Of a DNA stretch of 64,000 nt, positions 549-51,953 are shown one piece after another. The position numbers and the translations under genes are program-made. Under the pieces are notes generated by a model, which was not told the origin of the DNA, did no database searches, and saw nothing but the letters and a program-made list of their open reading frames with translations. The stretch covers positions 1,426,001 to 1,490,000 of the forward strand of contig NC_060063.1 of the NCBI RefSeq assembly GCF_020283565.1, given 5' to 3'. The stretch is from Trifolium pratense (Eukaryota; Streptophyta; Magnoliopsida; Fabales; Fabaceae). Every line of letters begins with the position of its first letter. The first letter of the stretch is position 1.

Positions 549-644
549 ATGCCACCATATTCTTTGCTGGAGATCTTGTTAGTGGAGTTGAAGCTACTGC
601 TTTATAGAATCATGATTTATTTTTATGTTTATCATCGGCTGTAA
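549..644 (+). CDS. Short-ORF family, copy A (31 aa, unknown function)
   Basis: This ORF of 31 codons is one of five related copies in the window (also near 6642, 28327, 46363 and 51857). The peptide starts MPPYSLLEILLVELKLLLYR and ends in His-Arg-Leu. It has no cysteines, is leucine-rich and has no obvious signal-peptide cleavage site. Upstream is a pyrimidine-rich leader containing aacttgtccataaaac, shared with the other copies. Just after the stop lies a conserved block ending in ggtaacaaatttctatct, which looks like a splice donor, so the ORF would sit in a first exon. Compared with the other copies, most differences in the first 20 codons are synonymous, which argues for coding. This copy is the most diverged of the intact ones. 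I do not recognise the family and assign no function. Confidence 0.55.
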   Translation: MPPYSLLEILLVELKLLLYRIMIYFYVYHRL

Positions 645-850
645 TTTCTTTGATTAATTTTAGGTAACAAATTTCTATCTTAAACTTTTATTATTATTTT
701 TAATTTAATATATATGTCAGTTATCAAGTAGTAATTGTTTTGGAATGCTCTTTCTGTTCCGAAAATAATTGTCACAATTTAATGATGTGCATTATTCTTA
801 CAAGTTATTACAAGTTATTTTGATCATATTTTTTTACTAATGTATAAAGA

Positions 851-1040
851 TGTTGTGGCAAGTGTGAGTGGTCAAGTCCCATATTACTTAGAAAACTAGA
901 GGTTGAACACTTTATAAGTGAGAGAACCCATAAACCTAACACCTTAAGGTTTTGGGTAAAAGTGTGTTGTCCAACTTACTTATGTAGTTGTTCTTAAACC
1001 CAATGTGGATGATCCGACTGCCCCTCGTGATGACCCAACA
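851..1040. mobile_element. Probable solo LTR, TRIM-like
   Basis: The segment begins TGTTGTGG and ends ACCCAACA, the TG...CA form of an LTR. It contains the phrases cccatattacttag and cctaacaccttaaggttttggg, typical of short plant LTR/TRIM elements; the second matches, in reverse complement, the LTR of the complete miniature element at 6172-6475. Flanks are aaaga and aaaaa, so a target duplication is imperfect at best. No internal region or second LTR is seen. Confidence 0.45.
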
Positions 1041-2020
1041 AAAAACAACTTATACATTTGAAATCTAATTTTATTATATATGTATAAGATATTACAAACA
1101 TCTAAGTTTATTTATAACATTACTGCATTTTATTCACTTTTTTGTTGTTACAATATTTATGTTTCAAATTAATAGTTTATTTATGAAATTTACGGATTCA
1201 ATGACTAAATTTGAGTTGAACCCTTTCATAGATATAAATTATTGTTTTTACTTTATTTATTTCTATAACGATTTTTTTTTTCAATTTAGACAAAAAAGAA
1301 TAGAAATGCTTACAAAAGAAGAGATGTTTCATATAGTGGTTTATCCATATAAGGTTCTTATCTCTGTCTAAGTCTAACATCTAGTTTGAAATATTTTGTT
1401 ATAAATTTGATTAAATACTGAAATTTTATTAATCTCTTAATAGCCTCAGATTGAAATACTTTCAAGAAAAAATAGTATAAAAAGATGAAAAAAATATGAT
1501 CATGCATGACTGGTACACCCAGATGGAGAAATAACTTTGGTTCTTTTGAATCTCTACAAGTTTGACTCATATCTGTCTTCAGGAATAATCGTATTAAAAA
1601 ATTTGAACATTGAAAAACCAACTGAAGTTATTATGGAATACGTAGAAACTGATAACAGATTTAAAATAATAATTATAAAAAATGAAAAAATTGATATCCT
1701 GAAGACAATATCAATTGATGTTGCTGCAGAAAACAATAAGTGATCCACATTTGTTGGATTTCAATTTTAATATGGTGTTTACAAATGGACAAGAAAGTCA
1801 CAAAAGCAAATGCAAGCAGAAAAAAAAAATCAACCTTTGGTATGCTAAATTATTTTGATTTATACTCTTTATAATTCAATTATTTGTCAATCAAGCTTTT
1901 ACTTTGTTATATCAAACATTTCATACTCTATATTATGTCTATTGAAAATTATTTTGATATTCTCAACAAAATCTGTTTTTTTAACATTATCTTACTTTAT
2001 ATACATTCTAAGCATGTTTC
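1041..2020. other. AT-rich stretch without clear gene
   Basis: Mostly AT-rich sequence. A 68-codon open frame on the plus strand at 1537-1743 has fairly protein-like composition and lies upstream of the B3-like remnant, so it could be an old exon, but I see no family motif in it. Nothing else is supportable. Confidence 0.3.
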
Positions 2021-2033
2021 AACAGATGGCGTT

Positions 2034-2929
2034 TGACACTCACTTCAAGATAAAGAATTCATTGTTGTCCAATGTGCACACTGTGAGATTTTGGTTAAGT
2101 GCAAGATTTCTCCCGCCATTGGTTTTTCCTTGAAAAATGAAGAAAGCATATTTTTTGGTGGTGTTGCTGGTCATCACACCAGGCTTGCTGCACCGGCGCC
2201 TGGCTCAACGTTTTGTAGGTTTGAGTAATGGTCTCTGGCCTCTGCGCCAGGCTTGACATGGCCTGCGCCAAGCTTGGGACAAGATTATATATATCCCTTG
2301 TTTTCTTTTGTTCAGCCGTCAGCTTGAGTAAGAGAGAGAAAAATTGATTATTTCTAGGGTTCTTCAACATCATAAAGGCTAGATAATTAGAGGGCTTCTC
2401 TTAGGTATTATCTAGGGATTAAGAACTCATCTCTTTCATCTTGTAATCATTATCATTGAATCTCTTGGTCACAGTGAGAGATTCGAGAAAATGGTAGAAA
2501 TAGGTAAAACTCATATTTCTTGCAACTCTTTGAGAAGATCTTTTGAAATCAAGACCAACAAGTTTGATAGGGGATCGGAGAGCTGCACTCTCCCCAGAGT
2601 AGGTCACATTGACCGAACTAGGTAAACAATTTTATTGTGTCATTTTCTTTCTCGCCTTTTACCTTTCGATTTGTGATTATTATTGTCGTTCGCTTATTTG
2701 ATTGTTTAATCGTAATTGCTCCACACATTAAGGTTATTGGTGTGATTTAATCGAATTCACAACACCCGCTACTAGAGATGACAACAACACTGAGAAATAC
2801 ATTACCACAGGTTGGAATGACTTTGTTAAGCATAAGAAACCCAAAGTTGACGACAAAATGTTCTTCGAGCTAAATCAGGCTGGAACTCTTCTGCGTGTCA
2901 AATTTGTTAGCAGAGACACAAATAAGTAA
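2034..2929 (+). pseudogene. B3 DNA-binding domain remnant split by an LTR
   Basis: From 2765 to the TAA at 2927-2929 an open frame reads through TGWNDFVKHKKPKVDDKMFF and ELNQAGTLLRVKFV. The pattern GW-x-x-FVK...VDD...FEL matches the C-terminal half of a plant B3 domain of the REM type (consensus GW..FVKEN.L..GD...FEL), with D in place of the usual G of GD. Before the interruption, one frame of 2040-2160 is also open with protein-like composition. The two parts are separated by an LTR-like insert at 2162-2764. B3 proteins are nuclear transcription factors, but this remnant is too short and broken to bind DNA in the usual way. Confidence 0.5.
2162..2764 (+). mobile_element. LTR (solo or truncated) inside B3 remnant
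   Basis: The segment starts TGTTGCTGG and ends TTCACAACA, giving TG...CA ends with inverted tips (ggtgttg / caacacc). It carries a TATA-like tatatatatccc and a transcribed-leader style region. Composition differs from its surroundings, with a GC-rich part at 2170-2280. No primer-binding site follows the 3' end; B3-like coding sequence resumes directly. I could not find a matching 5-bp target duplication (ggtgg / cccgc), so the exact ends are uncertain. Confidence 0.5.
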
Positions 2930-6163: not shown

Positions 6164-6171
6164 TATATCTC

Positions 6172-6548: not shown

Positions 6549-6557
6549 TATATATAA
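6549..6557 (+). promoter_or_regulatory. TATA box of short-ORF copy B
   Basis: TATATATAA lies 85-93 bases before the ATG at 6642, within a stretch (cacacctatatataacccc) that is identical in the block III copy. The transcript would start about 30 bases downstream, giving a leader of roughly 60 bases. Inferred from position and motif only. Confidence 0.55.
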
Positions 6558-6641
6558 CCCCAAAACTTGTCCATAAATCTCCAATCTCAAAAGTCTTCAC
6601 TACCACTACCTTTCTCCATCTCTTTAGTTCTTCCTACTACC

Positions 6642-6743
6642 ATGCTATTGCTACCATATCCTTTGCCCAAGATCTTGTTGCTGGAGTTGAAGCTACTGAT
6701 TTATAGAACAATGACTTATTTTTGTGTTCATCATCGACTGTAA
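6642..6743 (+). CDS. Short-ORF family, copy B (33 aa, unknown function)
   Basis: A 33-codon ORF whose peptide begins MLLLPYPLPKILLLELKLLI and ends CVHHRL. It has two more codons near the start than the 31-codon copies, an in-frame difference. A TATA box lies about 90 bases upstream, with a pyrimidine-rich leader ending ttcctactaccATG. The segment after the stop, ending attagaggtaacaaatttct, offers a splice donor. The nearest relative is copy C at 28327; both are at the end of a segmental duplication. Unlike copy C, this one is followed immediately by a MULE-like insertion at 6798, which may have cut off any downstream exon. Function unknown. Confidence 0.6.
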   Translation: MLLLPYPLPKILLLELKLLIYRTMTYFCVHHRL

Positions 6744-6797
6744 TTTCTTTGATTAATTAGAGGTAACAAATTTCTATCTTATAGTGTTTTATTATTT

Positions 6798-7392
6798 GGA
6801 AAATGCTTTATATCACGACATTTGCATTTTGCATCACGAGCGTGTATCACGAATGACATGGTATCTATTTGTAATTTTTATTGTTTAACGACTTGCCTAA
6901 TTTATTCAATTTCTCTCTGTTTTTATTTTAATAAATATTTAGTTTCTTAATTTTTTTTATTTACAAAAGCCCCCTCTCTCTCTTCTTTGATAAGAGTTCA
7001 AAGGAAAAAATTGCTCATCTGCCATGCACCTGCGCCGCTGTGGTGGCTTGTTTGGTTTCTTGTATGTTGGAGTTAAGTTTTTAAACATTAATGGTACCTT
7101 TACATGAAGATAGAAGCTATGTTTCTAAGAAAATTCTCATTCTTTACAAAGATCTATGTCATTAATTCAATGGTTTTTTAGAATTAGTCTTTTTATTTGC
7201 AATAACAGAAGCTGAAGCTATGGAAGGAGTGGGTGGAGGGTATACTATTGGGTCGGTGTTTTTTGTTTTGTTTTGAAGGTATAGGAAAGAAATATTGGGG
7301 CGGTGTTAATTTATATAGGAAAGAAATAAAATACCATTAATGCCATTCGTGATCAACTCGTGATGTAGCTCTCGTGACATATAGCAGCTCTC
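6798..7392. mobile_element. MULE-like non-autonomous element, 595 bp
   Basis: The element starts GGAAAATGCTTTATATCACG and ends GTGACATATAGCAGCTCTC. The ends are imperfect inverted repeats sharing ...TATRTCACGA. A perfect 9-bp duplication TTATTATTT (6789-6797 and 7393-7401) flanks it, typical of Mutator-like elements. Short cacga/tcgtg motifs recur near both ends. No transposase is seen. The right part of a second copy lies at 31077-31160, split by another MULE-like element. Confidence 0.8.
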
Positions 7393-7401
7393 TTATTATT
7401 T

Positions 7402-8387
7402 ACATCCCCATGATGCAATTTTTTAGAAATGGTTGTGAGTGGACTGTATGCTTTTAAGTATGCTATTAGTTTCAGAATGGAGTGACTAACATGATGCCCC
7501 TGTTTTCTACCAGAAACTTGCTAACAAATGCAATGATCTGTTTAAGACCCACACAATGGTTATTCCAACGACACTTCTATGACACAATCATAGTTTTGAT
7601 AGTGGCCAGTCTTCGGGACGAAGACCAAGTGGGTCTTCAGGAGGAGCAGGAGGACCGATTCGTCGGCGTCAGTCGACCACAACTCCATCTGTCTTTCTGC
7701 CCCAGGTCTCAGAATACGATCCTGAGCCTGAAGAGAGGATCGATAAAGAATTGTGGGCACTTTTGGAGAACAATAAAGTTTCTGATCAAAGACAAGTATT
7801 CATAATGTCCAACATGACACTTAAGGAGAAGACGATGTTGCTAAATACTCCTCCGTGTAATGTGTACATGATGGCAAGGCAGCTCGAGAAAAACCACCAC
7901 CAAAACTACGGCAGGTATTTTTAATATGTTTTGGATTTTAGTTTGATGCAAACACTAATATATTTTTATGGTATATTTTAGAATTGAGTTTTGGTTTGTA
8001 AGGTGGGGATTGACTCTTACTTGTAAACATTTGTTCAGGCCTTCTCGCAAGCGATGTGGGATTTCTTTAACAGTATATACCAATTAATATGTTTTGGCTT
8101 TTATATGGTAAATAGTAATGAATAAATGATGAAGAAGAAGTGATACCAGAACTTTGTTTGTCCTAAAACACAAGTCCAAATTAACTTGGTTTTAATAGAA
8201 ATTGCTGCTTAAATCTGATGATACCCTTATTGTCGGAACAGTTATTGTCGGAACAGTGATGCTTTGTATGGTTTCCATATTATTGTACTCTTATGTCTAT
8301 CATGTACAAAGGAAAATGATTTTTTTGGAATTTCTTATTCTTCTTTTATGTTTACTATAATACTATAAATTATGTATGCTTTGTTCT
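7402..8387 (+). pseudogene. Unknown spliced gene fragment (Ser/Gly-rich exon), copy 1
   Basis: From about 7586 to a splice donor at 7914/7915 (ggcag|gtattt) a frame is open, running through a Gly/Ser-rich tract, then PSVFLPQVSEYDPEPEERID, then a charged segment with ELWALLENNKVSDQRQVF and NVYMMARQLEKNHHQNYG. A stop codon (TGA, about 7580) precedes it, with possible acceptor sites just upstream. A second copy at 31252-31553 shares the first two thirds and differs by a 12-base in-frame duplication, consistent with coding. A further possible exon, after tgttcag, is near 8039. I do not recognise the protein. The Copia element sits directly downstream and may lie in a former intron. Confidence 0.5.
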
Positions 8388-8569
8388 TGTTGTAAACAAG
8401 GGGTTTGTATTCTCATTAATAATTCCAACAATACAATCTCTCCTTATATAGGGAGATACACATACACAGGCCTAGCAGACTTGGCCCATTGTCAAGGCAA
8501 GCCCACTAACGCGCGCGCCACAAGGCCAACTATACAATGACTTGGCCTGCAAGCTATGTGACTCTAACA
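8388..8569 (-). repeat. Copia 3' LTR
   Basis: 182-bp terminal repeat, 3' with respect to the minus-strand element. It has TG...CA ends and contains ccttatatagggag (TATA-like on the plus strand) and a GC-rich acgcgcgcgc tract. It appears identical to 12784-12965. Confidence 0.97.
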
Positions 8570-8666
8570 TACACTCCCCTAAACTGAACATCCTATACAG
8601 TTTACATCAAACAAACACAAAAAACAACATGAATAAGACTGAAAAAACTCAGGACTTAAGCCAAAC

Positions 8667-11600
8667 TTAAGCCAAACTGTGAACATCACAAAGGCCAAGC
8701 CTCTCTCTGAACTTGCAAAATGACTCAAGCTTTAAAGCCTTGGTCATAATGTCTGCTATCTGATCTTGAGTGCTGCAATGAATGAGCTTCACCACTCCAT
8801 CCTTGGTCAAGTCTCTCAGAAAATAGAACCTCACATCAATGTGTTTAGACCTGCCATGCAAAACTGGATTCATAGAAAGCTTGATGGAGGAGCTATTGTC
8901 ACAATGTATAACAGTACAATCTTGCTGCTGATTCAGTTGCTCAAGAATTCTTCTTAGCCAAATTCCTTGACAGGCACAAGCAGTGGCTGCCACAAATTCT
9001 GCTTCAGTAGTTGACAATGTAACAATAGCTTGCTTTTTTGATGACCATGATATAGGGCTTGAGCCAAGCATAAAGACATAACCAGATGTACTTTTCCTAT
9101 CATCAAAGTCTCCTGCATAGTCACTATCAGACCAACCCTGCAACTTCAAAGCTTCACCTCTTTTGTACAAAATACCAAGGTTCAGTGTCCCTTTGAGATA
9201 CCTCATCACTCTTTTTGCAGCCATCAAATGAGCTTCCTTAGGCTTTTCCATGTATCTTGCAATCAAGCAGACTGAAAAGGTAAGATCAGGTCTGGTAGCT
9301 AGTAAATACATCAGACAACCAATTATCTGCCTGTAGTTTGTAGCATCAACAATGGATCCATCTTGATCTTTTGTCAATTTGTTACCAGGCACTATAGGGC
9401 TGTTCACACTATTGCATTGTGCCATGTTAAACCTCATCAAAAGATCTTTTGCATACTTCTGCTGATAAATGAAAATTCCATGATCAGATTGCATAACTTC
9501 CACTCCAAGGAAGAACCTCATCCTTCCTAAGTCTGTCATAGAGAACTTTCTTTCCATGGAATGTTTAAATTCTTCAAACATGAGGACACTACTTCCAGTG
9601 AAAATCAAATCATCTACATATATGCTCACAATTAGCACATTTCCCTTTCCATCATATTTCATGAACAATGTGTGTTCATGAGGGCATTTCTCAAAGTTCT
9701 CTTCTGTAAAATAGGATTCTATCTTGCTGTACCAAGCCCTTGGTGCTTGCTTAAGACCATACAATGCCTTTTTGAGTTTATACACCTTACCATCTTGTTT
9801 ATCATAACCTGGAGGTTGATCAACAAACACATTTTCAACTAATTCTCCATGCAAAAATGCACTTTTCACATCAAGTTGGTTCACAGGCCAGCCTTTTGAA
9901 GCTGCAACAGCAAGAATTGCTCTAATAGTATCCCATCTAGCAACAGGGGCAAATACCTCATTAAAGTCAACTCCATATTGCTGAGTATATCCTTTGGCCA
10001 CTAACCTTGCTTTAAGCTTTTCAACCTCTCCATGTTCATTATATTTTGTCTTATAGACCCATTTCACACCAATTTTCTTAACTCCTTTTGGAAGATCTAC
10101 CAGCTCCCAAGTATTGTTCTTCTCAATGGATTCTATTTCCTGATCCATAGCTTGTTTCCAGCCCTTAACTTTTACTGCCTCATCATAGGAAATTGGGTCT
10201 TCATTGTTGCAAAAAGCAGCTAAATTCTGCAATTCCTCTTGACTATTTAAATCTGTGACATAGTCTCTAGTCCAGCCAGGTGGCTTTCTAGTTCTTGGAG
10301 GTAATGAAGTCTCTTCTTCATCAGTACTACTATTGTCATCATGATCTTCTTGATCATTCTCTTCACCAGCATGATTTCCATTGTTCACTGAACTAGTTGG
10401 CTCATCTGCTCCAACCATTGGTTCAGTTACTTCAAGATCAATGCTTTGATAATCTTCTACTACTTTACTTGTGTTCTTCTCATCCCAATTCCAACCTTGA
10501 TTCTCATCAAACACAACATCTCTACTGATGATAATCTTTTTTTGAATGGGATCATAGAGCTTATAGGCTTTTGACTCTTCACTCACACCTAAAAGAACAC
10601 ACTTAATTCCTTTTGCATCCAACTTCTTTCTTTTGACATCTGGTACATGCACATACCCTAAACATCCAAACACTTTAAAGAAAGAAACAGAAGGTTTTGT
10701 ACCTCTCCAAGCTTCCTCAGGTGTCATGTTCTTCACAGACAAGGTAGGGCTTCTGTTGATCACATAAGTAGCCCAAACTACTGCTTCTGGCCAAAACCTC
10801 TTAGGTACATTTCTTCCATTTAGCATACTTCTGACTACATTCATCAATGTTCTATTCTTTCTCTCAGAAACTCCATTCTGTTGAGGAGTATAGGCTGTAG
10901 TCAATTGCCTTTTGATGCCATACTCACTGCAAAATTCATTAAAAGTATCAGAAAGGAATTCCCCACCTCTATCTGTTCTAAGACACTTAATTGACTGATT
11001 TGACTCATTTTCAACTAATGCTTTGAACCTTTTAAACACAGCAAGAGCACTTGACTTCTCTTTTAAAGGATAAGTCCATGTTTTCCTGCTGTAATCATCT
11101 GTAAAAGTAATGAAGTATCTACAACCTCCATTAGAAGTGGGTGTGATGGGACCACATATATCTGAATGAACCAATTCAAGCTTCTCAGTGGCTCTCCATG
11201 ATGATGTTTTAGGGATTGAATCTCTGTGTTGCTTGCTAATTACACAATCACTACACAATTCTTGACTTTCTTGCAGTAGGGGTAATCCATTGACCATATC
11301 TTTCTTTGCAAGTGTGTGTAGGCCTTTGAAGCTCAAATGGCCATACCTATGATGCCAAAGAGATCCCTCACTGTCATGAGCTGTTTTCAAGCAGCTTGGA
11401 GTGATAACTGGACAAAGTAGAATATACATTCTATTGACTGTCATGGGAGTTGACACAATCAAGCCTCTTTCTTCATGAAATATCTTGCAGGTATCTTTGC
11501 TAAAGACAATTGTGAGATTCTTTTGTTGTAGCTGCCCTATGCTTAACAAATTGTTTCTCAGATTTGGTAGATAGTATACATCAGTGATGACACTAATTTT

Positions 11601-12650
11601 GCCTTGCAAGCTTATTTTCACATTTCCTTTACCCATCACAGACATTGTAGAGTTATCACCAAGCTTAACAGTCTCACGAAACGTATCATCAAAGTCAAAT
11701 AACCATTCTTTGGTGCCAATCATATGATTGCTACAGCCAGAGTCTAGGAACCAAACCTGATTAGTATTGACATTTGATTGATTCTGAGCCATCATCAACA
11801 TTTCTTCATGCTCATCAAATTCAGCAAAATTTGCATTTTCCTCCCAAGTTGGACACTCATTCTGATAGTGTCCAAGCTTATGACATCTGTAGCATTCTAC
11901 AAATTCTTTTGAGGTACTTGCAGCTGATCTACCTCTCCCACGCCCTCTTGAGCTGGTACGACCCCTACCTCTTGAATTTGCAGACCCTCTTCCAAGATTG
12001 GAGTTAGACACCTTCAGAGCCTGCTCTTCCTCCTTAACCTTGTGAATCTTCATCCTGCCTTCATGAACAAGTAAACTACTCTGAAGTTCATCAATGGACA
12101 TGGTGGTAACATCATGTGATTCCTCAATTGAGCATACAACATACTCAAATTTGGAAGTCATTGATCTCAAGATTTTCTCAACAATGTTGCCATCAGTCAA
12201 TCTTTCACCATGTGATGTCATCTTGTTGGCAATAGCAAGGGTTCTTGCAAAGAACTCTGTGACTGATTCATCCTCTTTCATACAAAGAATCTCAAAATCA
12301 CGCCTCAATGATTGCAATTGAGCACGTTTCACCTTATTAGAACCTTGATACTTTCTTCTCATAGATTCCCAAATATCTCTAGAAGTGCCTCGTACAAGAA
12401 TGGTTTCAAGTATGGAGCGATCAATAGATTGAAAGAGGTAGTTCTTTACCTTCAGATCTTTCAATTTACTTTCTTCAGCAGCTTTGATTTGATCTGGTGT
12501 AGCATTTGCAGGAGCTACCACAACTCCATTCTCAATCAAACTCCAGTATTCTTTCGAACGCAGTAGATTTTCCATCAATTCGGCCCAATGATCATAGAAA
12601 CCGTCGAATTTAGGAATGGAAGGAGGCATAAACGAAGGGTGATCCGCCAT
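8667..12650 (-). CDS. Copia gag-pol polyprotein (1327 aa)
   Basis: A single open frame encodes all functions for replication through an RNA intermediate. In order: gag with a zinc knuckle CYRCHKLGHYQNEC (about residues 253-266) after a Gly/Arg-rich tract; aspartic protease with DSGCSNHM (about 303); integrase zinc finger (HRYGHLSFKG ... CSDC), then the DDE core with the Asp of HSDICGP, FTDDYSR and the Glu of NGVSERKN; reverse transcriptase with the active-site YVDD; and RNase H with SDSDYAGD, TTEAEF and HCDNSSSI. The order protease-integrase-RT-RNaseH defines Copia. No stop or frameshift is present. The ATG at 12650 is 118 bases inside the primer site. The protein would act in cytoplasmic particles and then in the nucleus. 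Every key residue I can check is present. Confidence 0.98.
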   Translation of the reverse strand: MADHPSFMPPSIPKFDGFYDHWAELMENLLRSKEYWSLIENGVVVAPANATPDQIKAAEESKLKDLKVKNYLFQSIDRSILETILVRGTSRDIWESMRRKYQGSNKVKRAQLQSLRRDFEILCMKEDESVTEFFARTLAIANKMTSHGERLTDGNIVEKILRSMTSKFEYVVCSIEESHDVTTMSIDELQSSLLVHEGRMKIHKVKEEEQALKVSNSNLGRGSANSRGRGRTSSRGRGRGRSAASTSKEFVECYRCHKLGHYQNECPTWEENANFAEFDEHEEMLMMAQNQSNVNTNQVWFLDSGCSNHMIGTKEWLFDFDDTFRETVKLGDNSTMSVMGKGNVKISLQGKISVITDVYYLPNLRNNLLSIGQLQQKNLTIVFSKDTCKIFHEERGLIVSTPMTVNRMYILLCPVITPSCLKTAHDSEGSLWHHRYGHLSFKGLHTLAKKDMVNGLPLLQESQELCSDCVISKQHRDSIPKTSSWRATEKLELVHSDICGPITPTSNGGCRYFITFTDDYSRKTWTYPLKEKSSALAVFKRFKALVENESNQSIKCLRTDRGGEFLSDTFNEFCSEYGIKRQLTTAYTPQQNGVSERKNRTLMNVVRSMLNGRNVPKRFWPEAVVWATYVINRSPTLSVKNMTPEEAWRGTKPSVSFFKVFGCLGYVHVPDVKRKKLDAKGIKCVLLGVSEESKAYKLYDPIQKKIIISRDVVFDENQGWNWDEKNTSKVVEDYQSIDLEVTEPMVGADEPTSSVNNGNHAGEENDQEDHDDNSSTDEEETSLPPRTRKPPGWTRDYVTDLNSQEELQNLAAFCNNEDPISYDEAVKVKGWKQAMDQEIESIEKNNTWELVDLPKGVKKIGVKWVYKTKYNEHGEVEKLKARLVAKGYTQQYGVDFNEVFAPVARWDTIRAILAVAASKGWPVNQLDVKSAFLHGELVENVFVDQPPGYDKQDGKVYKLKKALYGLKQAPRAWYSKIESYFTEENFEKCPHEHTLFMKYDGKGNVLIVSIYVDDLIFTGSSVLMFEEFKHSMERKFSMTDLGRMRFFLGVEVMQSDHGIFIYQQKYAKDLLMRFNMAQCNSVNSPIVPGNKLTKDQDGSIVDATNYRQIIGCLMYLLATRPDLTFSVCLIARYMEKPKEAHLMAAKRVMRYLKGTLNLGILYKRGEALKLQGWSDSDYAGDFDDRKSTSGYVFMLGSSPISWSSKKQAIVTLSTTEAEFVAATACACQGIWLRRILEQLNQQQDCTVIHCDNSSSIKLSMNPVLHGRSKHIDVRFYFLRDLTKDGVVKLIHCSTQDQIADIMTKALKLESFCKFRERLGLCDVHSLA

Positions 12651-12783
12651 GGATGAAGCTTAGAGAGCAAGAATCGAAGAAAGAATGAGGAAGAAGAGTA
12701 ACAGAAAACGGTTGCACCGTTGTAACAAACTGTAACAAACTTTTGAACAAACAAGTCTTAGTGAAAGGCTCCTTGATACCAAA

Positions 12784-12965
12784 TGTTGTAAACAAGGGGT
12801 TTGTATTCTCATTAATAATTCCAACAATACAATCTCTCCTTATATAGGGAGATACACATACACAGGCCTAGCAGACTTGGCCCATTGTCAAGGCAAGCCC
12901 ACTAACGCGCGCGCCACAAGGCCAACTATACAATGACTTGGCCTGCAAGCTATGTGACTCTAACA
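12784..12965 (-). repeat. Copia 5' LTR
   Basis: 182-bp terminal repeat that would drive transcription of the element on the minus strand. It appears identical to the 3' LTR, and the primer-binding site begins two bases inside the element. Confidence 0.97.
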
Positions 12966-13981: not shown

Positions 13982-14057
13982 ATATATCATTAATTTTCTA
14001 CCACCTCAAAGCAAAAAAAAAAAGTATTTTTTTTCTTCTTGTTTAATGGGGTTATAT

Positions 14058-14230
14058 ATGAAATGGTTTATTTTTTTTTTTTTTCTCATTCTTGTGTTTC
14101 TATAAATGTGATATGTTATAGTAAAGTTGAAGATGAAATCAGATGAGAAATATTAGTAGGGGGTTACCCATTACTATCATAGTAGTGGGTTACCCTCTAC
14201 TAAATAAGTAGTGGGTAACCCCCTACTAAG
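14058..14230. repeat. Repeat R copy 1 with palindromic ggttaccc block
   Basis: Sequence starting atgaaatggtttattt and running to ccctctactaaataag recurs at 14484-14625 and 15744-15895. It includes tagtagggggttaccc; in this copy it is followed by the reverse complement gggtaaccccctacta, so the end can form a hairpin. The three copies bracket the RDR6 fragments and look like termini or internal repeats of the carrier element. Confidence 0.75.
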
Positions 14231-14324
14231 ATATAGTAGAGGGTAACGCACTACTAACATGAGTCTACTGAACAATTTGTCGGGTCCTTTCATTTTGAGG
14301 TCAACAAGAAAATGAGTGTTGTAG

Positions 14325-28158: not shown

Positions 28159-28231
28159 TATCTCTCAACATTGCAACATTGCAATGAATGACTTATTCTC
28201 TCTATTCTCTAACACGTTTCTTCTGCACACC

Positions 28232-28240
28232 TATATATAA
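28232..28240 (+). promoter_or_regulatory. TATA box of short-ORF copy C
   Basis: TATATATAA about 87-95 bases before the ATG at 28327, in the same context as copy B (cacacctatatataacccc). Confidence 0.55.
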
Positions 28241-28326
28241 CCCCAAAACTTGTCCATAAATCTCCAACCTCAAGAGTCTTCACTACCACTACCTTTCTCC
28301 AACTCTTCTTAGTTCTTCCTACTACC

Positions 28327-28422
28327 ATGCTACCGTATCCTTTGCCCGAGATCCTGTTGCTGGAGTTGAAGCTACTGATTTATAGAACCATGACTTATTT
28401 TTGTGTTCATCATCGACTGTAA
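28327..28422 (+). CDS. Short-ORF family, copy C (31 aa, unknown function)
   Basis: A 31-codon ORF starting MLPYPLPEILLLELKLLI and ending CVHHRL, close to the consensus of the five copies. Its TATA box, leader (ccactacctttctcc... actaccATG) and trailing donor block (attagaggtaacaaatttct) are all conserved with copy B. Against copies D and E the first 20 codons show changes in nine codons that keep the amino acid and in two that do not (by eye). The trailing sequence continues into AT-rich DNA without a recognised second exon. Family and function unknown; the product is probably a small leucine-rich peptide if translated. Confidence 0.62.
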   Translation: MLPYPLPEILLLELKLLIYRTMTYFCVHHRL

Positions 28423-28500
28423 TTTCTTTGATTAATTAGAGGTAACAAATTTCTATCTTAAACTTTCATTATTGTTAATTTAATTTAATATATATGTTTG

Positions 28501-39900: not shown

Positions 39901-40514
39901 GGTAGCATATAATTAGAGGACATATCCAATAATTCAAGGTTGAACAAGTTACCAATTTCGGCCGGAAAAGTAGCATTAAATGAACAATATTGAAGATAAA
40001 GGAATCTTAAATCCTTAAGATTTCCAATACTAGAAGGAATTTCACCACTAAAATAGGTTGAACCAAGGTTGAGATATTGCAAATTAACCAAACTTTGAAT
40101 TTCATAAGGAATCTTGCCAACAAAGTTATTCATTGATAAATCAAGATACTCAAGCTTGGAACATTTAAATAGAGATTTTGGAAACTCACCAGGAATGAAA
40201 TTCTTGCTGAAATCAACATGTGTGAGGTTTTTAAGGTCACATATGAAAGAAGGTATAGTTTGAGTTATGTTGGAGTTGACCAAAGTCAACCCTGTGATAG
40301 AACCTTTGGTGCATGTGATTTTTGGCCAAGAACAATAAGAGGTGTTTGATGAGTTCCAATGACTAAGAAAAGATGGATTTTGTAGGTGAAACTTGAATTT
40401 TAATAAGATTAAATGTTCTTGTTGAGATTGAAAATTTGCATGGCTCAAAATTAGAAAAATGGCTATGTGAAAGTAAAGTGAAAATTTGATATGAGATGTG
40501 GCTAATATTGTCAT
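36941..40514 (-). CDS. LRR receptor-like kinase, subfamily XI type (HSL1-like), 1012 aa
   Basis: Two exons, 40514-37901 and 37365-36941, join in frame (CCAG|GTAAAA ... TGCAG|AATATG), restoring the APEY motif after SFGYM. The protein has a signal peptide (about 1-28), an N-terminal cap with CSWPKITC (61-68), about twenty leucine-rich repeats, a membrane segment (about 635-657) and a kinase domain from about 680. The glycine loop GSGGFGTV (695-702), the lysine in VAVKK, HRDIKTSN (823-830) and DFG (843-845) are present, so the kinase looks active. HRD identifies an RD kinase. Such receptors sit in the plasma membrane and bind peptide ligands through the LRRs; relatives include HAESA/HSL and CLE- or PIP-type peptide receptors, but the ligand cannot be told here. 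Length is normal. The 535-base intron at this place is usual for the subfamily and holds a MITE. Confidence 0.95.
37446..37799. mobile_element. Foldback MITE in the kinase intron
   Basis: Arms aagggttaaattatttttac...caatgttagcaaatt and the reverse complement of tttgctaacattgcagggag...attttaccct bracket a centre with a second inverted pair (aggcttaagattccgtcatt / ggaatcttaagcc). It makes up most of the 535-base intron and leaves the splice sites intact. Confidence 0.7.
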
Positions 40515-40768
40515 TTGAGAGTGTTTGAGTGTTTTTTTTCTTAGTTTTTTTATTGTTTTGAATTTGTATTAAAAAAAGAAATTTGTATGCAAAGGAGGAA
40601 GAAGAAGAAGTCTTATGGTCTTCCACTAACTTACAATTGTTGGATTGATTGAAAATTTGGACACTACTCATTTTCAATATATGGATGTGGATAAGGGACA
40701 ATAGTTTGAGATTATTATTACACTAGTTTATTTACTTGCCATAAATTTTAAAACGACATTAATCATGG
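40515..40768 (-). promoter_or_regulatory. Upstream region of the receptor kinase
   Basis: About 250 bases between the start codon and the foldback element at 40769 hold the likely leader and core promoter. The leader is A/G- and T-rich (gaagaagaagaag on the plus strand). No confident TATA box or motif is named. Confidence 0.3.
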
Positions 40769-41189: not shown

Positions 41190-41480
41190 TGTGGTCCCTT
41201 AAAGACATTTTTGGTTTCAGATTGGTCCCTTAAAGAAAAAAAGGTTCAAATAGGTCCCTTAAAGAAAAAAAAGTCCGAATAGGTCCCTTAAAGACATCTC
41301 CGTTAATCAGTTTGGTCCCTAAAAAGAGGTCTAAATAGGACCAAACTGATTAACGGATATGTCTTTAAGGGACCTATTCGGACCTTTTTTTCTTTAAGGG
41401 ACCTATTTAGACCTTTTTTTCTTTAAGAGACCAATATGAAACCAAAAATATCTTTAAGGGACCATTTTACTAATTAAGCC
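41190..41480. mobile_element. Foldback element with ggtcccttaaag repeats
   Basis: The motif ggtcccttaaaga occurs repeatedly in the left half and its complement tctttaagggacc in the right half, giving a long hairpin centred near 41320. It is related to 25125-25535. The matching point in the second tandem copy (42990) lacks it. Confidence 0.8.
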
Positions 41481-42169
41481 TTAAATTTGTGAATGTGAAC
41501 TATTTTATTGCTGCTCTTGATTATTTGCGGTGGCCATCAAGGTGATCCAAATGGGTCACGGCTACCCCCAATTTTTTTTTGTCTTTTTGTGTAAATTATT
41601 GTGGTATTATATTTAAAAGTCTTAAGTCAGTTGTCTATTAGTCTTTACATTTATTTTTTTGTGTATTCTATATATATTTTGAAGGCTTTAACTCAAATGA
41701 TCAAATAACACCTATATATTTTGTGTTTCAACCTTCTTCTTTTTTTTTATCTTTGTATGAGTATGCTTAGAAATTTATACCCCTAAGAAATTTAGTTGCT
41801 CTAGTGCTCAACAGAGAAGTGACACCAACAAGAAGATTCGAACTTCAAGTCTTGAGAGAAGCACACTTTGATCATTTTAGTTACAAAATTTAGACAATTT
41901 CATCCTCCCATTAGAAACCAAAATATCTTAATAATTTTAATTTAAAAGATCAAATTGTTCAAAATTTATAACTAAAGAGACCAAACTATCTAACGTTTGT
42001 CTGTTAGAAGACCAAAATGAAACAAAACAACCTTAAAAAACCAAAGTCATACTTAAAATTAATTTAATGGACCAAAAGTTTAATATAACCTTATTTTTAT
42101 TATTTTTTAGAATTACCTATAAATGTCTTCATACATGATGCGTACATGATGCGTAGAAGGTTAATCTGA

Positions 42170-42540
42170 GGTCTTAACAACTTGCATAGTTGAACTAAGG
42201 GTGAATTTCAATATGACTTGCATGACTACACTGAGCTTGTCATGATGAAGGTTGAGCTCTACATGACCTGGATGGTCAAGCTAAGCTAGACATGTTGAAA
42301 CTAGAGCTCATGCTTGAGTTGAGTTAGGCATGATAAAGGAGGAGCTTATGGTCGAGTTGAGCTATTCATGTTGAAAGTGGTGCACATGGTCAAGCTGAGC
42401 TAGACATGCTGAAGGATGAGCACATCGTTCAGTTGAGCAGAGCATGTTGAAGGTGGAGCTCAAGGTCAAGCTCAGTTGAGTATGCTGAAAGTGGAGCTCA
42501 AGGTCGAGCTGAGCTGAGTATGATGAAGGTGAGCTAAAAT
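42170..42540. repeat. Degenerate ~48-bp minisatellite, copy 1
   Basis: Seven to eight imperfect units of about 48 bases built on aaggtggagctcatggtcaa followed by gctgagctagacatg. The same array is in the second tandem copy at 43760-44120. It creates minus-strand open frames of repetitive composition (for example at 42362-42586), which I do not regard as genes. Confidence 0.8.
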
Positions 42541-44399
42541 ATGATAAGCATAACAAAAATGTTATTTGAACGACTATTTTTGACAACTTTATCTCTCTTA
42601 CTCACATTATATTTTTATTCTCTCTCCCCATTTTTCTCTCTATTTTTTTGGCCAATAAAAAAATTAGAGGACAACAACCAAGTTGTCTCAAAAGTTGTTA
42701 AAACTAGTTGTTTAAATATCATCCCGCTAAGCATAAATGAACCATTGTTTAGTCGGTGTTGGTTTTTATTGGGATGTATCACTTTCGATAAATGTGTCAT
42801 TTCAACAAAAAATGGATTCAGGGACCATTTTTAAAGTAAAATGAAAGTGCAGTGGCAAAATAAAAGGATTTTAAAATGCAGGGACTAAAATTCAAATGAT
42901 CCGTAAGTGCAAGAATTTTTTGCATATTTAAGCCTATATTTAAGAGTTTGACAAAATGTGATATATAAATTCTACAAATTTAGATGGATATGTGGTGTTT
43001 AAATTTGTGAATGTGAACTATTTTATTGCTGCTCTTGATTATTTGCGGTGGCCATCAAAGGTGATCCAAATGGGTCACGGCTACCCCCAATTTTTTTTTG
43101 TCTTTTTGTGTAAATTATTGTGGTATTATATTTAAAAGTCTTAAGTCAGTTGTCTATTAGTCTTTACATTTATTTTTTTTGTGTATTCTATATATATTTT
43201 GAAGGCTTTAACTCAAATGATCAAATAACACTTATATATTTTGTGTTTCAACCTTCTTTTTTTTTTTTTTATCTTTGTATGAGTATGCTTAGAAATTTAT
43301 ACCCCTAAGAAATTTAGTTGCTCTAGTGCTCAACAGAGAAGTGACACCAACAAGAAGATTCGAACTTCAAGTCTTGAGAGAAGCACACTTTGATCATTTT
43401 AGTTACAAAATTTAGACAATTTCATCCTCCCATTAGAAACCAAAATATCTTAATAATTTTAATTTAAAAGATCAAATTGTTCAAAATTTATAACTAAAGA
43501 GACCAAACTATCTAACGTTTGTCTGTTAGAAGACCAAAATGAAACAAAACAACCTTAAAAAACCAAAGTCATACTTAAAATTAATTTAATGGACCAAAAG
43601 TATAATATAACCTTATTTTTATTATTTTTTAGAATTACCTATAAATGTCTTCATTTAATCGGCATGATATTAGGCTAGTCCGTGCAAATCACTTGGAGCT
43701 GCAGCACGCCTAGCGCACATCACTATGTTCGTACATGATGCGTAGAAGGTTAATCTGAGGTCTTAACAACTTGCATAGTTGAACTAAGGGTGAATTTCAA
43801 TATGACCTGCATGACTACACTGAGCTTGTCATGATGAAGGTTGAGCTCTACATGACCTGGATGGTCAAGCTAAGCTAGACATGTTGAAACTATAGCTCAT
43901 GCTTGAGTTGAGTTAGGCATGATAAAGGAGGAGCTCATGGTCGAGTTGAGCTATTCATGTTGAAGGTGGTGCACATGGTCAAGCTGAGCTAGACATGCTG
44001 AAGGATGAGCACATCGTTCAGTTGAGCAGAGCATGTTGAAGGTGGAGCTCAAGGTCAAGCTCAGTTGAGTATGCTGAAAGTGGAGCTCAAGGTCGAGCTG
44101 AGCTGAGTATGATGAAGGTGAGCTAAAATATGATAAGCATAACAAAAATGTTATTTGAACGACTATTTTTGACAACTTTATCTCTCTTACTCACATTATA
44201 TTTTTATTCTCTCTCCCCATTTTTCTCTCTATTTTTTTGGCCAATAAAAAAATTAGAGGACAACAACCAAGTTGTCTCAAAAGTTGTTAAAACTAGTTGT
44301 TTAAATATCATCCCGCTAAGCATAAATGAACCATTATTTAGTCGGTGTTGGTTTTTATTGGGATGTATCACTTTCGATAAAAAAAAAAAAAAAAAAAAC

Positions 44400-46160: not shown

Positions 46161-46362
46161 GTATCACCATATTGTTTTTCCAACACTATTTTCTTTGATC
46201 CAAAACCAACAACTTGATCGACCTCTGATTCTTCATCTTCATAAGTTCATATACCTTTTCAAACATAAATTTCAATTCAACTTGTACAAATTTGCTACCC
46301 AGCCTCTAACCCCAAAATTTGTTCATAAAACCTCAAGCTTTTTCTTAGTTCTTCCTAGTACC

Positions 46363-46458
46363 ATGTTACCATATCCGTTGCCGGAGATCCTTTTGCTGGA
46401 GTTGAAGCTACTGCTTTGTAGGACAATAGCTTCTTTTTGTGTTCATGGTCGACTGTAA
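46363..46458 (+). CDS. Short-ORF family, copy D (31 aa, unknown function)
   Basis: 31 codons starting MLPYPLPEILLLELKLLL and ending CVHGRL. Upstream sequence from 46160 (tatcaccatattgtttttcc) matches that before copy E at 51645. The frame is also open upstream to 46117, so the ORF could in principle be read as the end of a longer frame including part of the trigger-factor exon, but the conserved part starts at the ATG. A donor (aaggtaacaattttct) follows the stop. Compared with copies A-C it has AGG for Arg20 and changed residues only in the last third. Function unknown. Confidence 0.6.
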   Translation: MLPYPLPEILLLELKLLLCRTIASFCVHGRL

Positions 46459-47993
46459 TTTCTTTGATTAAGGTAACAATTTTCTATCTTAAACTTTCAT
46501 TATTTGTTAATTTAATATATGTTTCTTATCAAGCAATTGTTTTCAAATAATTTAATATTTATTTTTAATGTGTGATTTACATTTTAAAAATTTACATTAA
46601 GACTCTGATTTTAGAGTTTTATAGACAAATTTTGGGGTTAGAGTATTTATTTACATATTTGTTAATTTAATTTCTTATGAAGACATGCTTACTTGGGGAT
46701 TTAATGCTCATCAGCAATCTATTGATTAATTTTTGTCTTTTTACATGTTTTTAAGATGCTATTATGTGTTTAAATTGCGTTTTGATGTGATAATTGTATG
46801 TGTGGACCACTTGAAACTCGGTCATCTTATGGATAGTTGTACAAATTCATCTAATAGCCAAAAAATAAATGTTTCTTTAAGTCAACTTTTAATACCACCC
46901 GGATTAAAATAAATGTTTCTTTAAGTCAAATGTTAGTGCCAACCGGATTTAAAAATTAGAGCATATAATAATTAGCTCTTTAATTGGTCATTTTTATAAG
47001 AACCCGTCTAAAAAAATAATCGTTGCTCTTTTGATGGTCATTTTTTAAGTTAAACAGTCTAATGCAATTTAAATGTTTTCTCTATGAGCTACATATTGAT
47101 CCCATTGATCAATGAAATTTACGGAGCAATTCACTTTGGGAAAGCACACTGCAATAAGCTACATCTCATCCATTGATTAAATCCGGCCGTTAAAATTTTT
47201 GTTGTGTATCGGTTTGAGACTGATTTTGCCTGCGCACCGTAGTCGGATCATATTATTCAATTATAAAATTTGATAAATCAAACCGATATACTAAATCTAA
47301 GAAGTTACAACCCTGTTATTTAATCATTGAAAATTAATTAGTAACAGGGTCTTATAATTATGGACGGAGTCAGAGGCAACAATAGATCAAAATAAAAGTT
47401 TTGACTAAGTTGTGTAATCATGTGTGGGGTGCGTTGGGTATAGGGCGGGTATAAGTGCATTAAATGTGAGTGTTAGTTTTGATTGATTTAATGCTTTCAA
47501 TTGCATACTTAACTAAGCATAGTAGGGAAAAAGGCTACTTGACTTTATAACACAAAAGAAGGAGCAGAGCAAACCATAGTACTATATCTGTTCTTCATCG
47601 TTTCCATCAGCTTTTCTTCTTCCATCCTCCAACAATAGATCTCAACAACAAATACATTTTGGTCTCCAGCCCTGCAAGAGGAAGCAATTCGTAAATTCAT
47701 AACCAACTTTAACTTTCATTTACACGATTTAAAGTTGATAACTTTATCTATATTCCATGATATTAATAAAGAAAAATGTGTTTGTGTAACATCCACCCTC
47801 AAAACGATGGTACTGGCTCGGTCATGCATATTTCCTCAATTGAACCTATGGATGACAATGTAATGGCTGTATAATAAGTTCTAGTAATTAAATCAAAGGT
47901 TCTAGCGATTAAATCAAAAGTTCTAATGATTAATCAAGGTCGTTTTTATGAAATATCACGAGTTTCACAAATTTTAATAAACTTTTGTTACAG
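46459..47993. other. AT-rich DNA, possible intron
   Basis: No gene recognised. 47330-47370 contains cttataattatggacggag, a partial Stowaway-like end. It could be the intron between copy D and the exon at 47994. Confidence 0.3.
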
Positions 47994-48939
47994 GTGGTTC
48001 ATGAGCGTGGGGTTCATGTTACTGAAGATGTTGCACATGCTGGATCTACGACAGACATCACACTCAGGGACATAATGGATGTTATAGAGGTACAAATCTG
48101 TTTATCAAAAGTTGTTTTCGTTGAATCCATTTTTGTGTGTATTTATAAATAAATACGTAGCATTCAAAAAGAACAAAGTAAATCATTTTTGTGTGTTTTC
48201 ATTCAATCCATTTTTGTGTCTTTATAAGTAAATATGTAGAATAAAAAAGAACTAAGTAAATCATTTTATTATTTTAGAACTTCAACATTCGTCTTGATAG
48301 CATGGATGTATGTAACACTGACATGATCAAACATTATATCAAAGATCTTTCAAAACATGTTGTTCGATCACCGACTAAGGGGAGGGAGGATGGTGATGTC
48401 CACAGTAGCTCTGGTTACTCTCCTGAGCTTGGGGAGAATGGGCAAAAGCTGAAGCAAAAATTTGTTTTGCAAAGAACCGCTGTCGATAACGAGATCGAAA
48501 TCGACAAGGAGATGGAGAGACTTAAAAACTTTGGTACAATCTCCTTGTCAGAAGACATAGCTGAAGGATCCAAAGTGAAGAAAAAAACAATTAGTAAAGA
48601 ATCTTTTGTTCGCACCGAGACACAACCAAAGAGGGCGAACAAACGCGTATGGTATTTTCAAATCCAGTGAATGAGGATGATCTCGCGAAAGCTAACGATG
48701 ATAGTCAAACTTACCAACCATTCAACAGTGACTACCGGAGATGTGGCAATGACAAGGTAAAAAACATTTGCATGATTAAGTAATGAATGTAAATTAGCAT
48801 GTAGATAGTACATAAAAGTTTGCTTGATGTTTAATGTTATATTTACAAATTTAAATTATTGATGAAGGGAACAACACTGAGAAGTGCAACGACGATGCCG
48901 AGAAGACTGAGTTTTACACCTGGTGAATGCTCAATGTAA
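47994..48939 (+). pseudogene. Unknown three-exon gene
   Basis: Exon 47994-48089 (after gttacag) starts VVHERGVHVTEDVAHAGSTT and keeps frame for 32 codons to a donor. Exon 48278-48756 (after attttag) reads NFNIRLDSMDVCNTDMIKHY, then a long hydrophilic, Lys/Glu-rich segment. At about 48653 the frame meets a stop unless one base is skipped, after which MVFSNPVNEDDLAKANDD continues to a donor at 48756. The last exon 48868-48939 ends TPGECSM and a stop. A frameshift thus probably breaks the gene. The protein looks disordered and nuclear-like; no known domain. It may be downstream of short-ORF copy D. Confidence 0.45.
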
Positions 48940-50190
48940 CAACCCAATATTTTACATACTTGATTTTCTTAATCTATTATTTGTTCAACTATTTATTTTG
49001 TATATAAAGAATTTAGATTTAATTATTTGATAAACACCTTAATTTTATTTATTTTCATTTTAACTATTTATTGAGTATATGTAATATGCGACTATAATTA
49101 AAAGGTTATTCTTTACGTTGACTTATTCTTATCACTTGATGATTCATTAATTAATTGAGTAATCATTTTTATACTTATCATTCGGTGATTTGTTTTATTT
49201 GAAGCAATTGTCAATTTATTGGCTATAGGAATATATAACATTAGATTAGATTTAGAGATAAATCTTCCATTGGCCTTTCTTATCGTGTGTCTTTCAAAGT
49301 TGACTTTCAATCCAATGTTTACTCCAATACTATGTTGAATCATTCATTGTCACAATTCATTACAATTAATTCTAAGTTCCCCAAGTAATCGTCTCTCGGT
49401 ACCAACAATCGTTCTTAGTACAACCATTAGTCTCAAAGAAATAATAAATACTCGATCGTTCGATTGACAGTAGGATATCGAGAGTCAGCATCGTTGAAAG
49501 GAAGTTCTTCAAGGGTTTTTTTTTCATACATTCATGCTACTTTTTCCTGTCCCAATGTTCGTTCCATCCCATCCAAACCTTGTCACAATATAGTCCAGTG
49601 ACACCAAGTTAAGATAATAAAAAAGTAATTTTATATCGAAAACAACATTTTGACTCTGTTCGGTAAAAAATAATGGATGACTGATAAACTAACTTATAAC
49701 GGATGAGCTTATGGTGGATAACTTATAAGTATGAAATGACATAAAAAATAAATATTTAATTAATATTTAATTTTTTCAAGTAAGATTGTAGGGATAAAAT
49801 TGGGAGAAAATATGATAAGCGATGGGCTATAAGCTACTTGAAATAGCGTTTAAAAAATAAACTATAAACTAGTAAAATAAACTATAAGCTCTTTTTAAAA
49901 AATTGTTACCAAATAGAACTTATAGCTTATAAGTTATTATAGCTATAAGCTCAATATTTCGCCTTAGTAAACATAGCCTGTAAAAACAAAGTTTGAAATA
50001 GATTTAGAATAGATTTAGTGTACTTTTTTTGCTGATGAAGAAGAGAATGAAGATGAATTGGTAGATTCAGATCTGGCTCTAAAAAGTTAGAGAATATTGG
50101 TCCTCTACCCCATATAGAGGTATTAATAATGGACGGAGACACGTGACGTGATGAACAGTAACCAGAGTTTTTAGAACATTTTCAATGTTG
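48940..50190. other. Intergenic DNA with candidate MITE
   Basis: From about 49655 to 49975 the ends ctctgttcggtaa and cttagtaaacatag enclose arms rich in acttataa/ttataagt, a common plant MITE type. Nothing else recognised. Confidence 0.35.
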
Positions 50191-50203
50191 TGTACTTATT
50201 TTC

Positions 50204-51106
50204 AGGGCCGGCCCAACATATCTTCGGGCCTAAAGCGAGATTTTACATGAGGCCATTTTACGATTAATAATAATAATAATATTCTAAAAAAGTTATACCC
50301 TTTTTTTATATATTTTTAAAATGTAATTTTTAAAGGTAATATAATTTTTTTGCCGAATATATAAACTTTTTTGGACTACTGTGAGTGATTCTTATAATAC
50401 ACTTTAATTAAAAAAATTTCTTAATATTTTCTTAAGTTTGGGGCTCATTTAGATTAACCTATTTTTAAGTTTATGATAATAACTTATACAAATAAATAAG
50501 TTTTTATATATTATTTGCATAAGTTCAAAAATAAGTTAATCTAAATGTCCGCATGCCTACTTTTTTAAACAATAAAAAAATTACTTTGTAGATTTTAACT
50601 AATTTATTTAATTGTAATTAGCGATAAATATATACCATTAAAATATATTAGTGGTAGTGTTTGGGATAGAACTCTTTGTTTAATTAAAGGAAAATGATAA
50701 ACAGTGTCCTCGGGACACTGGTTACTGGTTAAGTAGGTTAAAATGGAAATTTTGTCTCAAAATGTGTGCGTTCAATGCCTCAAAAGTGCAAAAAATTATT
50801 TTTTCAATATAAATTTTATTTTTTATTTCCTTTTTTAGGTATGCTTAACAAGTGTCCGAAAGCACTATTTAGCATGACCATTAATTAAAACCTTTAGTGA
50901 GTTCAAAACTTGAAAAATGAATTCATTTGCATTAAAAGGGCAAAATACATTATAAAAAGGCAAATGAAAAAGTAGGACGGAGGTATGGATCCTGAATGTA
51001 TGGTTTATTTTAAGGCCTTTACTATATAATAATATATTATTCCAATATGAGGCCTAAATTTAAGCCAAAATGGTCTTAAAAAATTGAGGCCTAGAGCCCT
51101 ATCTTT
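50204..51106. mobile_element. Candidate hAT-like element
   Basis: Left end CAGGGCCGGCCCAACATA with cgggcctaaag, right end gaggcctagagccctatc, an inverted pair seen in plant hAT elements. An internal palindrome lies at 50440-50550 (catttagattaac ... gttaatctaaatg). No target duplication could be identified. Confidence 0.5.
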
Positions 51107-51856
51107 ACTAGTATTGAAGGGTGGTGGTTGAAGGGGAAGGAAGGAAGAGATAAAGAAAGACATAAATGGGCTGTCTTATCTCCCATCTGCCTAATAATTT
51201 TATTTTCCATTTCCATGCTTGCTTTTTGTGATAGCAATTTGCAAATCAGTCAGTCTAGAGTTCAAATCAGTCTACTGATTTTTATGAGGGATCAGATTAT
51301 GTGACATAACTTTGACTCAATTTTAACCATTAGATTAATCACATCCTTGACACCTGTTAATCATTTATTTCTTAGTCTATTAATTATAGTCTATTAATTG
51401 TAGTACTTTGTTATGATGGTCCTTTTGACCGTTAATTTGAATTTTAATTACAAAGTCCATCAAAGGATTGGGTTTACTGCTGCAACGTATCCCACAGAGG
51501 AGATTTGGTAGACTTGCATACTCCCAAGGCTAAGAGAAAACGTTTTCTGCTCTGTGATCAGCCATCAATCAATCTTCTTTCCTATGTATTTATTGCTGTG
51601 CTCCTGCGCTATTAGAAAGAAAGAAAAAAAGACAAAAAGTATCACCATATTGTTTTTCCAACATCATTTTCTTTGATCCAAAACCAACAAGTTGATCAAC
51701 CTCTAATTCTTCCTCTTCATATACCTTTTCAAACATAAACAGCAATACAACTCGTATAAATTTTCTACCTTACCTCTAACCACAAAACTTGTCCATAAAA
51801 CCCTAACCTAGAGTCTTCATTACCACCACACCTTCTTCTTAGTTCTTCCTACTACC
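51107..51856. other. Upstream region of short-ORF copy E
   Basis: AT-rich DNA, then from 51640 a leader shared with copy D (tatcaccatattgtttttcc, accttttcaaacataaa). No other gene seen. Confidence 0.4.
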
Positions 51857-51953
51857 ATGTTACCATATCCGTTGCCAGAGATTTTATTGTTGGAGTTGAA
51901 GCTACTGCTTTATAGGATAATGACTTATTATTTTTATACATTATCGACCGTAA
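51857..51953 (+). pseudogene. Short-ORF family, copy E (frameshifted end)
   Basis: The first 25 codons match the family (MLPYPLPEILLLELKLLL, then YRIMTY). One extra base in the tta.ttattttta stretch shifts the frame, so the usual stop at 51951-51953 is out of frame and translation would run on to 52027. The conserved N-terminal part is intact; only the variable end is affected. The copy could be a pseudogene or a variant with a longer tail. A donor (atgaggtaacaaatttct) follows, and exons at 52543 and beyond lie downstream on the same strand. Confidence 0.55.

Follow-up and report, generated by a model that had tools for sequence, protein, structure and literature searches.

Copied gene starts with a small upstream open reading frame, probably from a decaying B3-type gene cluster of red clover

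Conserved peptide upstream open reading frames (CPuORFs) of plants are often found in transcription factor genes, according to the consulted parts of two studies (PMC3426882, PMC7106846), whose main text does not contain the term 'B3 domain'. The ESUCA criterion for a CPuORF, as given in the consulted part of one of them, is a Ka/Ks below 0.5 that is significant against controls (PMC7106846). A further legume case in the consulted sections is MtHAP2-1 / NF-YA1 of Medicago, whose intron-bearing leader contains an upstream open reading frame (PMC4294137, PMC7106846). Here, a 64,000-nt stretch of red clover (Trifolium pratense; NC_060063.1, C5:1426001-1490000 of the 413.6-Mb assembly searched; hereafter the window) is compared with these systems. 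It carries five related units, A to E, whose short open reading frames (ORFs) begin at 549, 6642, 28327, 46363 and 51857. The sequence-only reading described a pyrimidine-rich leader, an ORF and a splice donor in each unit, all of which are present on the same strand, and took the units for genes of a translated small peptide kept by purifying selection. On balance, they are probably duplicated copies of a promoter, a probable untranslated first exon with an upstream ORF, and a donor, associated mainly with a decaying cluster of B3-type genes; such leftover gene starts are more likely than a new family of peptide genes.

The five units are homologous copies, and chance is excluded. In particular, the stretch GAGTTGAAGCTACTG, correctly reported as common to all five, occurs at 585, 6684, 28363, 46399 and 51893, five of five times on the + strand and never on the - strand of the window, and a profile of the unit finds the same five places (E = 4e-60 to 1.6e-53; next-best match in the window E = 2.6). 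Each unit contains a core promoter-like block (TAACC..AAAACTTGTCCATAAA; altered in D), a leader with 67-85% pyrimidines over -60 to -1 (window mean 51%), the ORF, and the donor AG/GTAACA (slash at the exon border), which is kept in all five. Since no ATG occurs from -130 to -1 in any of the five, the ORF starts at the first ATG. Unit A (430..663; this and all following unit and ORF coordinates on the + strand) comprises the core block at -119, the pyrimidine-rich leader, the short ORF and the end of the putative exon 1, with the donor GT at 664; its proposed upstream ORF (549..644) has 31 codons and begins at the first ATG of the exon. From core block to donor, unit B spans 6555..6762 (ORF 6642..6743, 33 codons), unit C 28238..28441 (ORF 28327..28422, 31 codons), unit D 46316..46472 (ORF 46363..46458, 31 codons) and unit E 51777..51970 (ORF 51857..52027, 56 codons). 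The length of 31-33 codons given earlier holds for A-D, as does the excess of exactly two codons in B, and is wrong for E, where a one-base insertion near codon 25 changes the C-terminal end and carries the frame across the donor at 51971. A non-coding tail of 15-20 bases separates stop and donor in A-D. Because the ORF ends before the donor in four of the five window copies, it would be an upstream ORF in any spliced mRNA.

A genome-wide DNA search returns at least 38 matches, of which at least 24 are units; the others are eight inverted 42-base matches beside repeat copies, four upstream pieces of known units and two short exon fragments (C6:38808246 and C4:1482150, with the sequence read for C6:38808246 alone). 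Eleven of the 24 units lie at C5:1.12-1.48 Mb, all on the + strand and ten of them at 1.34-1.48 Mb. Four single units lie elsewhere (three on C4, one at C6:29332k), and nine, on C2, C5, C6 and C7, have the long common flanks of a dispersed repeat. Many copies are decayed. Fourteen copies begin with ATG, the nine repeat copies have ACG instead, and one has lost its start codon by truncation; of the 14 with ATG, two are stopped at codon 8 and E is frameshifted. Overall, the ORF is intact in 11 copies and broken in 13.

Genome-wide B3 searches, which scored part of their candidates (150 of 280 in one of them), together with a reading of the copies that for some extended to 1.5 kb, find a B3 or B3-like gene downstream of six of the 24 copies. 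Exons of a B3 gene follow three copies, namely window copy A (where they are pseudogenic), C5:1344k and C5:1362k, and the same acceptor and exon 2 occur in all three. In copy A, the putative intron 1 (664..1289, +) begins with the unit intron and from about 1045 matches the intron 1 of a B3 gene; the putative exon 2 (1290..1353, +) follows the acceptor TTTAG (AG ends at 1289) and contains an ATG at 1306 and MLTKEEMFHIVVYPYK. Further downstream on the + strand are two degenerate B3-gene exons at 1489..1839 (61% identical to P0003, in-frame stops) and 2013..2159 (65% to P0004, in-frame stop), and a piece of the B3 domain at 2762..2926 (91% to P0004; Pfam B3 E = 3.6e-5, 24.1 bits, below the 30.1 cut-off). 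The red clover protein P0004, which matches the genome at 98.6-100% over two main exons, itself scores 24.2 bits, below the cut-off, and P0002 (LOC123905417) scores 30.9, just above it. An encoded B3 domain downstream of the unit is found at C5:1362k, where two exons joined across the intron reach 32.3 bits (cut-off 30.1); the second exon with its flank alone gives 19.0 bits, and a change of frame also occurs in this gene.

A second gene is present downstream of three other units, at a distance of 0.7 kb for C4:25523k and about 4.5 kb for C5:1351k and C5:1373k; it has a 95-aa exon that is open in all three places and an intron at the position seen in P0004. Its 33% likeness to the P0003/P0004 exon, together with a 44% relative that adjoins a weak B3 match (21.2 bits, below the cut-off), suggests that this gene is B3-like. 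The unit is present in three of its four closest copies; the fourth (C7:9950697, 88%) has stops and no unit in the sequence examined. Because B3-gene exons follow three copies of the unit and this B3-like gene follows three more, an upstream ORF in an exon of the 5′ untranslated region (UTR) is the better interpretation of the short ORF.

According to this reading, each unit would be the 5′ end of a gene, composed of a core promoter, a leader, a 31-codon ORF, a short tail, a donor and the start of intron 1. Ribosomes would meet the upstream ORF first, and the main protein would be made through re-initiation or leaky scanning. Where the gene downstream can be named and is related between copies, it would be of the B3-domain type. 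The array on chromosome 5 would have grown by tandem and segmental duplication, and most copies would since have decayed or been left without a gene body. At the A-type copies, the unit takes the place of the B3 gene's own first exon, with the junction inside intron 1. The copies, their anatomy, the B3-type partners, the breakpoint and the decay are visible in the DNA itself, whereas transcription and splicing of the copies, and an effect of the upstream ORF on translation, are predictions made from it.

Several observations weigh against the units being the starts of B3-type genes. Within the window, no B3 exon is found after copies B, C, D and E, and several of the B3 matches fall under the Pfam cut-off. 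Other units have other neighbours: C5:1118k precedes a Transposase_32 gene, C5:1387k has a MULE/FAR1 gene about 4 kb further on, and the exon behind C6:29332k matches only itself in the genome. Moreover, exon 2 of copy A and its acceptor recur in eight related B3 loci (L051-L058), which have no unit in about 1.3 kb upstream; seven of the eight possess their own coding first exon (ATGGCTTCAAGCTC..AAAAG/GT). Among these loci, L051-L054 are near-identical tandem neighbours, L051-L055 are free of stops in the aligned exons, and L056-L058 have in-frame stops.

Since these eight loci are without the unit and seven have their own exon 1, copy A is a chimera, and the unit is not the ancestral first exon of that B3 subfamily. 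The homology of copy A with L051-L058 begins at window position 1045 (1095 for L057), and the change from unit sequence to B3 intron 1 is abrupt. Because the homology starts inside intron 1, the unit occupies the place of the B3 first exon in the A-type copies. In copy A and its sisters, a piece of about 195 bp (window 846-1045) separates the unit intron from the B3 intron; it may be akin to a short plant repeat of the long terminal repeat type. This piece may have mediated the fusion.

The alternative that survives best is an incidental ORF, in which a duplicated 5′ UTR exon is constrained at the DNA or RNA level (promoter, donor, intron start) and the ORF has no function; we consider it possible, if rather doubtful. 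One argument for it, absent from the sequence-only reading, is that the stretch from stop to intron is more strongly conserved than the ORF. The mean identity of the five copies peaks after the ORF (0.95 and 0.92 at +90 to +149), compared with 0.81, 0.91 and 0.79 in the ORF, 0.74-0.85 in the leader and 0.38-0.71 in the deeper intron. Across 14 copies, 12 of 42 sites vary from stop to intron vs 47 of 93 in the ORF (Fisher P = 0.024). In particular, the 16 bases GTAATTTCTTTGATTA, which start one base ahead of the stop codon and include it, are unchanged in 24 of 24 copies, although the ORF is broken in 13 of them. Further, the fragment at C6:38808246 (L033:1480-1570) is limited to the end of the exon, the donor and the beginning of the intron; these have few changes, including one changed base within GTAATTTCTTTGATTA, and no other part of the unit matches there. 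The donor bases GTAACA, found in all 24 copies and preceded by AG in 22 (AT in C5:1344k, CG in C6:29332k), speak for the reading as gene starts.

The tests of selection on the ORF bear on this alternative from both sides. Over the first 20 codons of C, D and E, two codons differ non-synonymously, as had been reported, and a recount gives eight synonymously differing codons instead of nine; the pair C-E has 10 synonymous vs 2 non-synonymous differences. Across the five window copies, the pooled pN/pS (NG86) is 0.25 for codons 2-21 and 0.56 for codons 2-31 (without E), and a codon model gives an omega (dN/dS) of 0.36 for codons 2-21 (P = 0.054; other frames 1.11 and 1.50). The larger fits include 12 of the 24 units, leaving out nine repeat copies, two with premature stops and one truncated copy. 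For these, omega is 0.58 in codons 2-21 (P = 0.095; other frames 1.13 and 1.07), 0.75 in codons 2-31 (P = 0.29) and 2.88 in codons 22-31 (P = 0.15); with branch lengths fixed, it is 0.60 (P = 0.11) in codons 2-21 and 0.81 (P = 0.42) in codons 2-31. That the 12-copy omega is not significantly below 1 is expected of an incidental ORF; that the true frame has the lowest omega in codons 2-21, with five copies and with twelve, speaks against it. The simple count is lower, with a pooled pN/pS of 0.32 (codons 2-21) and 0.51 (codons 2-31, without E) in the 12 copies, and takes no account of a strong transition bias (kappa about 6). In five recent A-type copies pN/pS is 17 (codons 2-21) and 3.4 (codons 2-31), with very few synonymous changes behind both values, and the excess of changes at codon position 3 has P = 0.12 in column shuffles of the window copies; both agree with a functionless ORF. 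On the other side, these copies have fewer amino-acid changes than shuffled columns (P = 0.0004), with pairwise values of P = 0.003 for C-E, 0.026 for C-D, and a non-significant 0.73 for C-A and 0.13 for C-B. A two-class branch fit (18 of 24 units, codons 2-21) gives an omega of 0.54 for the deep branches vs 1.31 for those that are recent or start-lost (P = 0.015), a hint only, as the classes were chosen after seeing the copies. This difference makes a past constraint on the peptide possible in the older branches, with its loss in recent copies. Purifying selection on the ORF, and with it the stand-alone peptide gene proposed earlier, is not demonstrated for the present copies.

A stronger form of the upstream-ORF reading holds that promoter, 5′ UTR exon with a translated upstream ORF, and donor form a ready-made gene start, copied at least 24 times, placed before at least four kinds of sequence and, in one group, replacing the native first exon of a B3 gene, which is thereby brought under upstream-ORF control. 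This proposal is unlikely as it stands.

A mobile module of promoter and first exon, spread by transposons or repeat recombination and able to start any downstream gene, is distinctly improbable. It would account for the four or more kinds of neighbour and for the nine copies in a dispersed repeat. The repeat is longer than 7 kb (L047-L050), and its copies at C5:43.9 Mb, C7:50.0 Mb and C7:59.24 Mb (the last lying some 3 kb short of a contig end) are 97.6-99.8% identical over 7 kb; in the three places read, the strand opposite to the unit carries a B3-like ORF at a distance of about 2 kb (25.7 bits, under the Pfam cut-off). It would also account for the 1.3-kb piece around C (28032-29357), which is 99% identical to a stretch on another chromosome, C4 (L042:440-1767). 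However, the 11 same-strand units on one stretch of C5 are explained by tandem duplication, no target-site duplication or terminal repeat is seen by eye in 40 bases on each side of the C/C4 copy, and the ATG is lost in the nine repeat copies.

The originally proposed stand-alone family of translated small-peptide genes under purifying selection is very unlikely: the five-copy omega, the pooled pN/pS of codons 2-21 and the C-E pair favour it, whereas the conserved donor just past the stop, the B3-type genes after six of 24 copies, the ORF intact in just 11 and an omega nearer 1 in the larger set oppose it, and a peptide gene may hold for an ancestor and is not supported for present copies. In agreement with the earlier statement that no known peptide matches, the ORF peptide has no relative at E <= 10 in a database of 5.8 billion proteins (26 candidates), in which 5′ UTR ORFs are rarely included. 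The peptide and the 15-mer, as letter strings, are not found in open-access papers.

Overall, these results illustrate that a copied first exon can mimic a conserved small-peptide gene when just five copies are seen. The graded copies (intact, start lost, stopped, frameshifted) provide material for asking whether an upstream ORF was selected, and a unit that did start chimeric mRNAs would give a clear example of first-exon replacement in plants.

Regarding the neighbours of the window units, no coding exon common downstream of all five is found by blastn or protein comparison. Downstream of D, the ORF at 48278-48667, with 85% identity to T. pratense P0001, has no Pfam match and is not common to the other units; the tested pieces of a block found after B (7176-7769) and C (29607-31551) are also without a Pfam match, and an Ulp1 protease at 52519-53430 downstream of E is unsupported by Pfam. 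Elsewhere in the window, the - strand at 8388-12965 has one long open frame (8670-12659) between 182-bp repeats and reads as a Copia-type element; as the repeats are 100% identical, it would be a young insertion. Scrambled direct and inverted pieces, 94-99% alike, occupy 14057-15900, and a frame at 15450-15791 matches RNA-dependent RNA polymerase (Pfam RdRP E = 1.3e-14). On the - strand are a gene like leucine-rich repeat (LRR) receptor kinases, read from its translation (36944-40568), and a ribosomal RNA adenine dimethylase gene (59320-62492; Pfam RrnaAD E = 4e-42 on 59320-60078, the remainder read from translation). Adjoining 1.3-kb copies at 41481-42792 and 42999-44381 are 99% identical and contain inner 38-bp tandem repeats. 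Inverted-repeat elements at 25205-25483 and 41192-41464 resemble MIR2655 on both strands, below the gathering score, and are perhaps miniature inverted-repeat transposable elements (MITEs).

Structured RNA or miRNA was rejected as an identity for the units: no Rfam family reaches the gathering score, and none matches at the units at E <= 5. Their consensus fold is weak (-11 kcal/mol; one of 29 predicted pairs changed on both sides), and stems of 20 or more pairs occur near several units and also elsewhere. No relative is found in viral contigs. An NF-YA/HAP2-1 leader was likewise rejected, with no NF-YA domain in the window (best E 0.5 with an approximate query sequence).

With regard to small signalling peptide genes, a donor follows the stop by 15-20 bases in A-D, and the omega of codons 22-31 is 2.88 (P = 0.15). 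The capture of gene fragments by transposons is a known process, which the nine units in the dispersed repeat resemble; in the three places read, a B3-like piece is found on the opposite strand some 2 kb off. The exons that follow copy A are 61-91% identical to the red clover B3-domain genes P0003 and P0004 (with P0002, Pfam PF02362); copy A differs from the P0004-type loci, none of the eight having the unit upstream and seven having another coding exon 1, and is itself pseudogenic. For the Ka/Ks on which the ESUCA criterion is based, the codon model gives 0.58 (P = 0.095) and 0.75 (P = 0.29) with 12 copies, not significantly below 1, and the simple counts are 0.32 and 0.51. The arrangement is like that of MtHAP2-1 / NF-YA1, as far as the consulted descriptions go, in combining a legume transcription-factor gene, an upstream ORF and a leader with an intron. 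Like CPuORFs, the units would place a short ORF, beginning at the first ATG, in a probable 5′ UTR exon before a gene of transcription-factor type.

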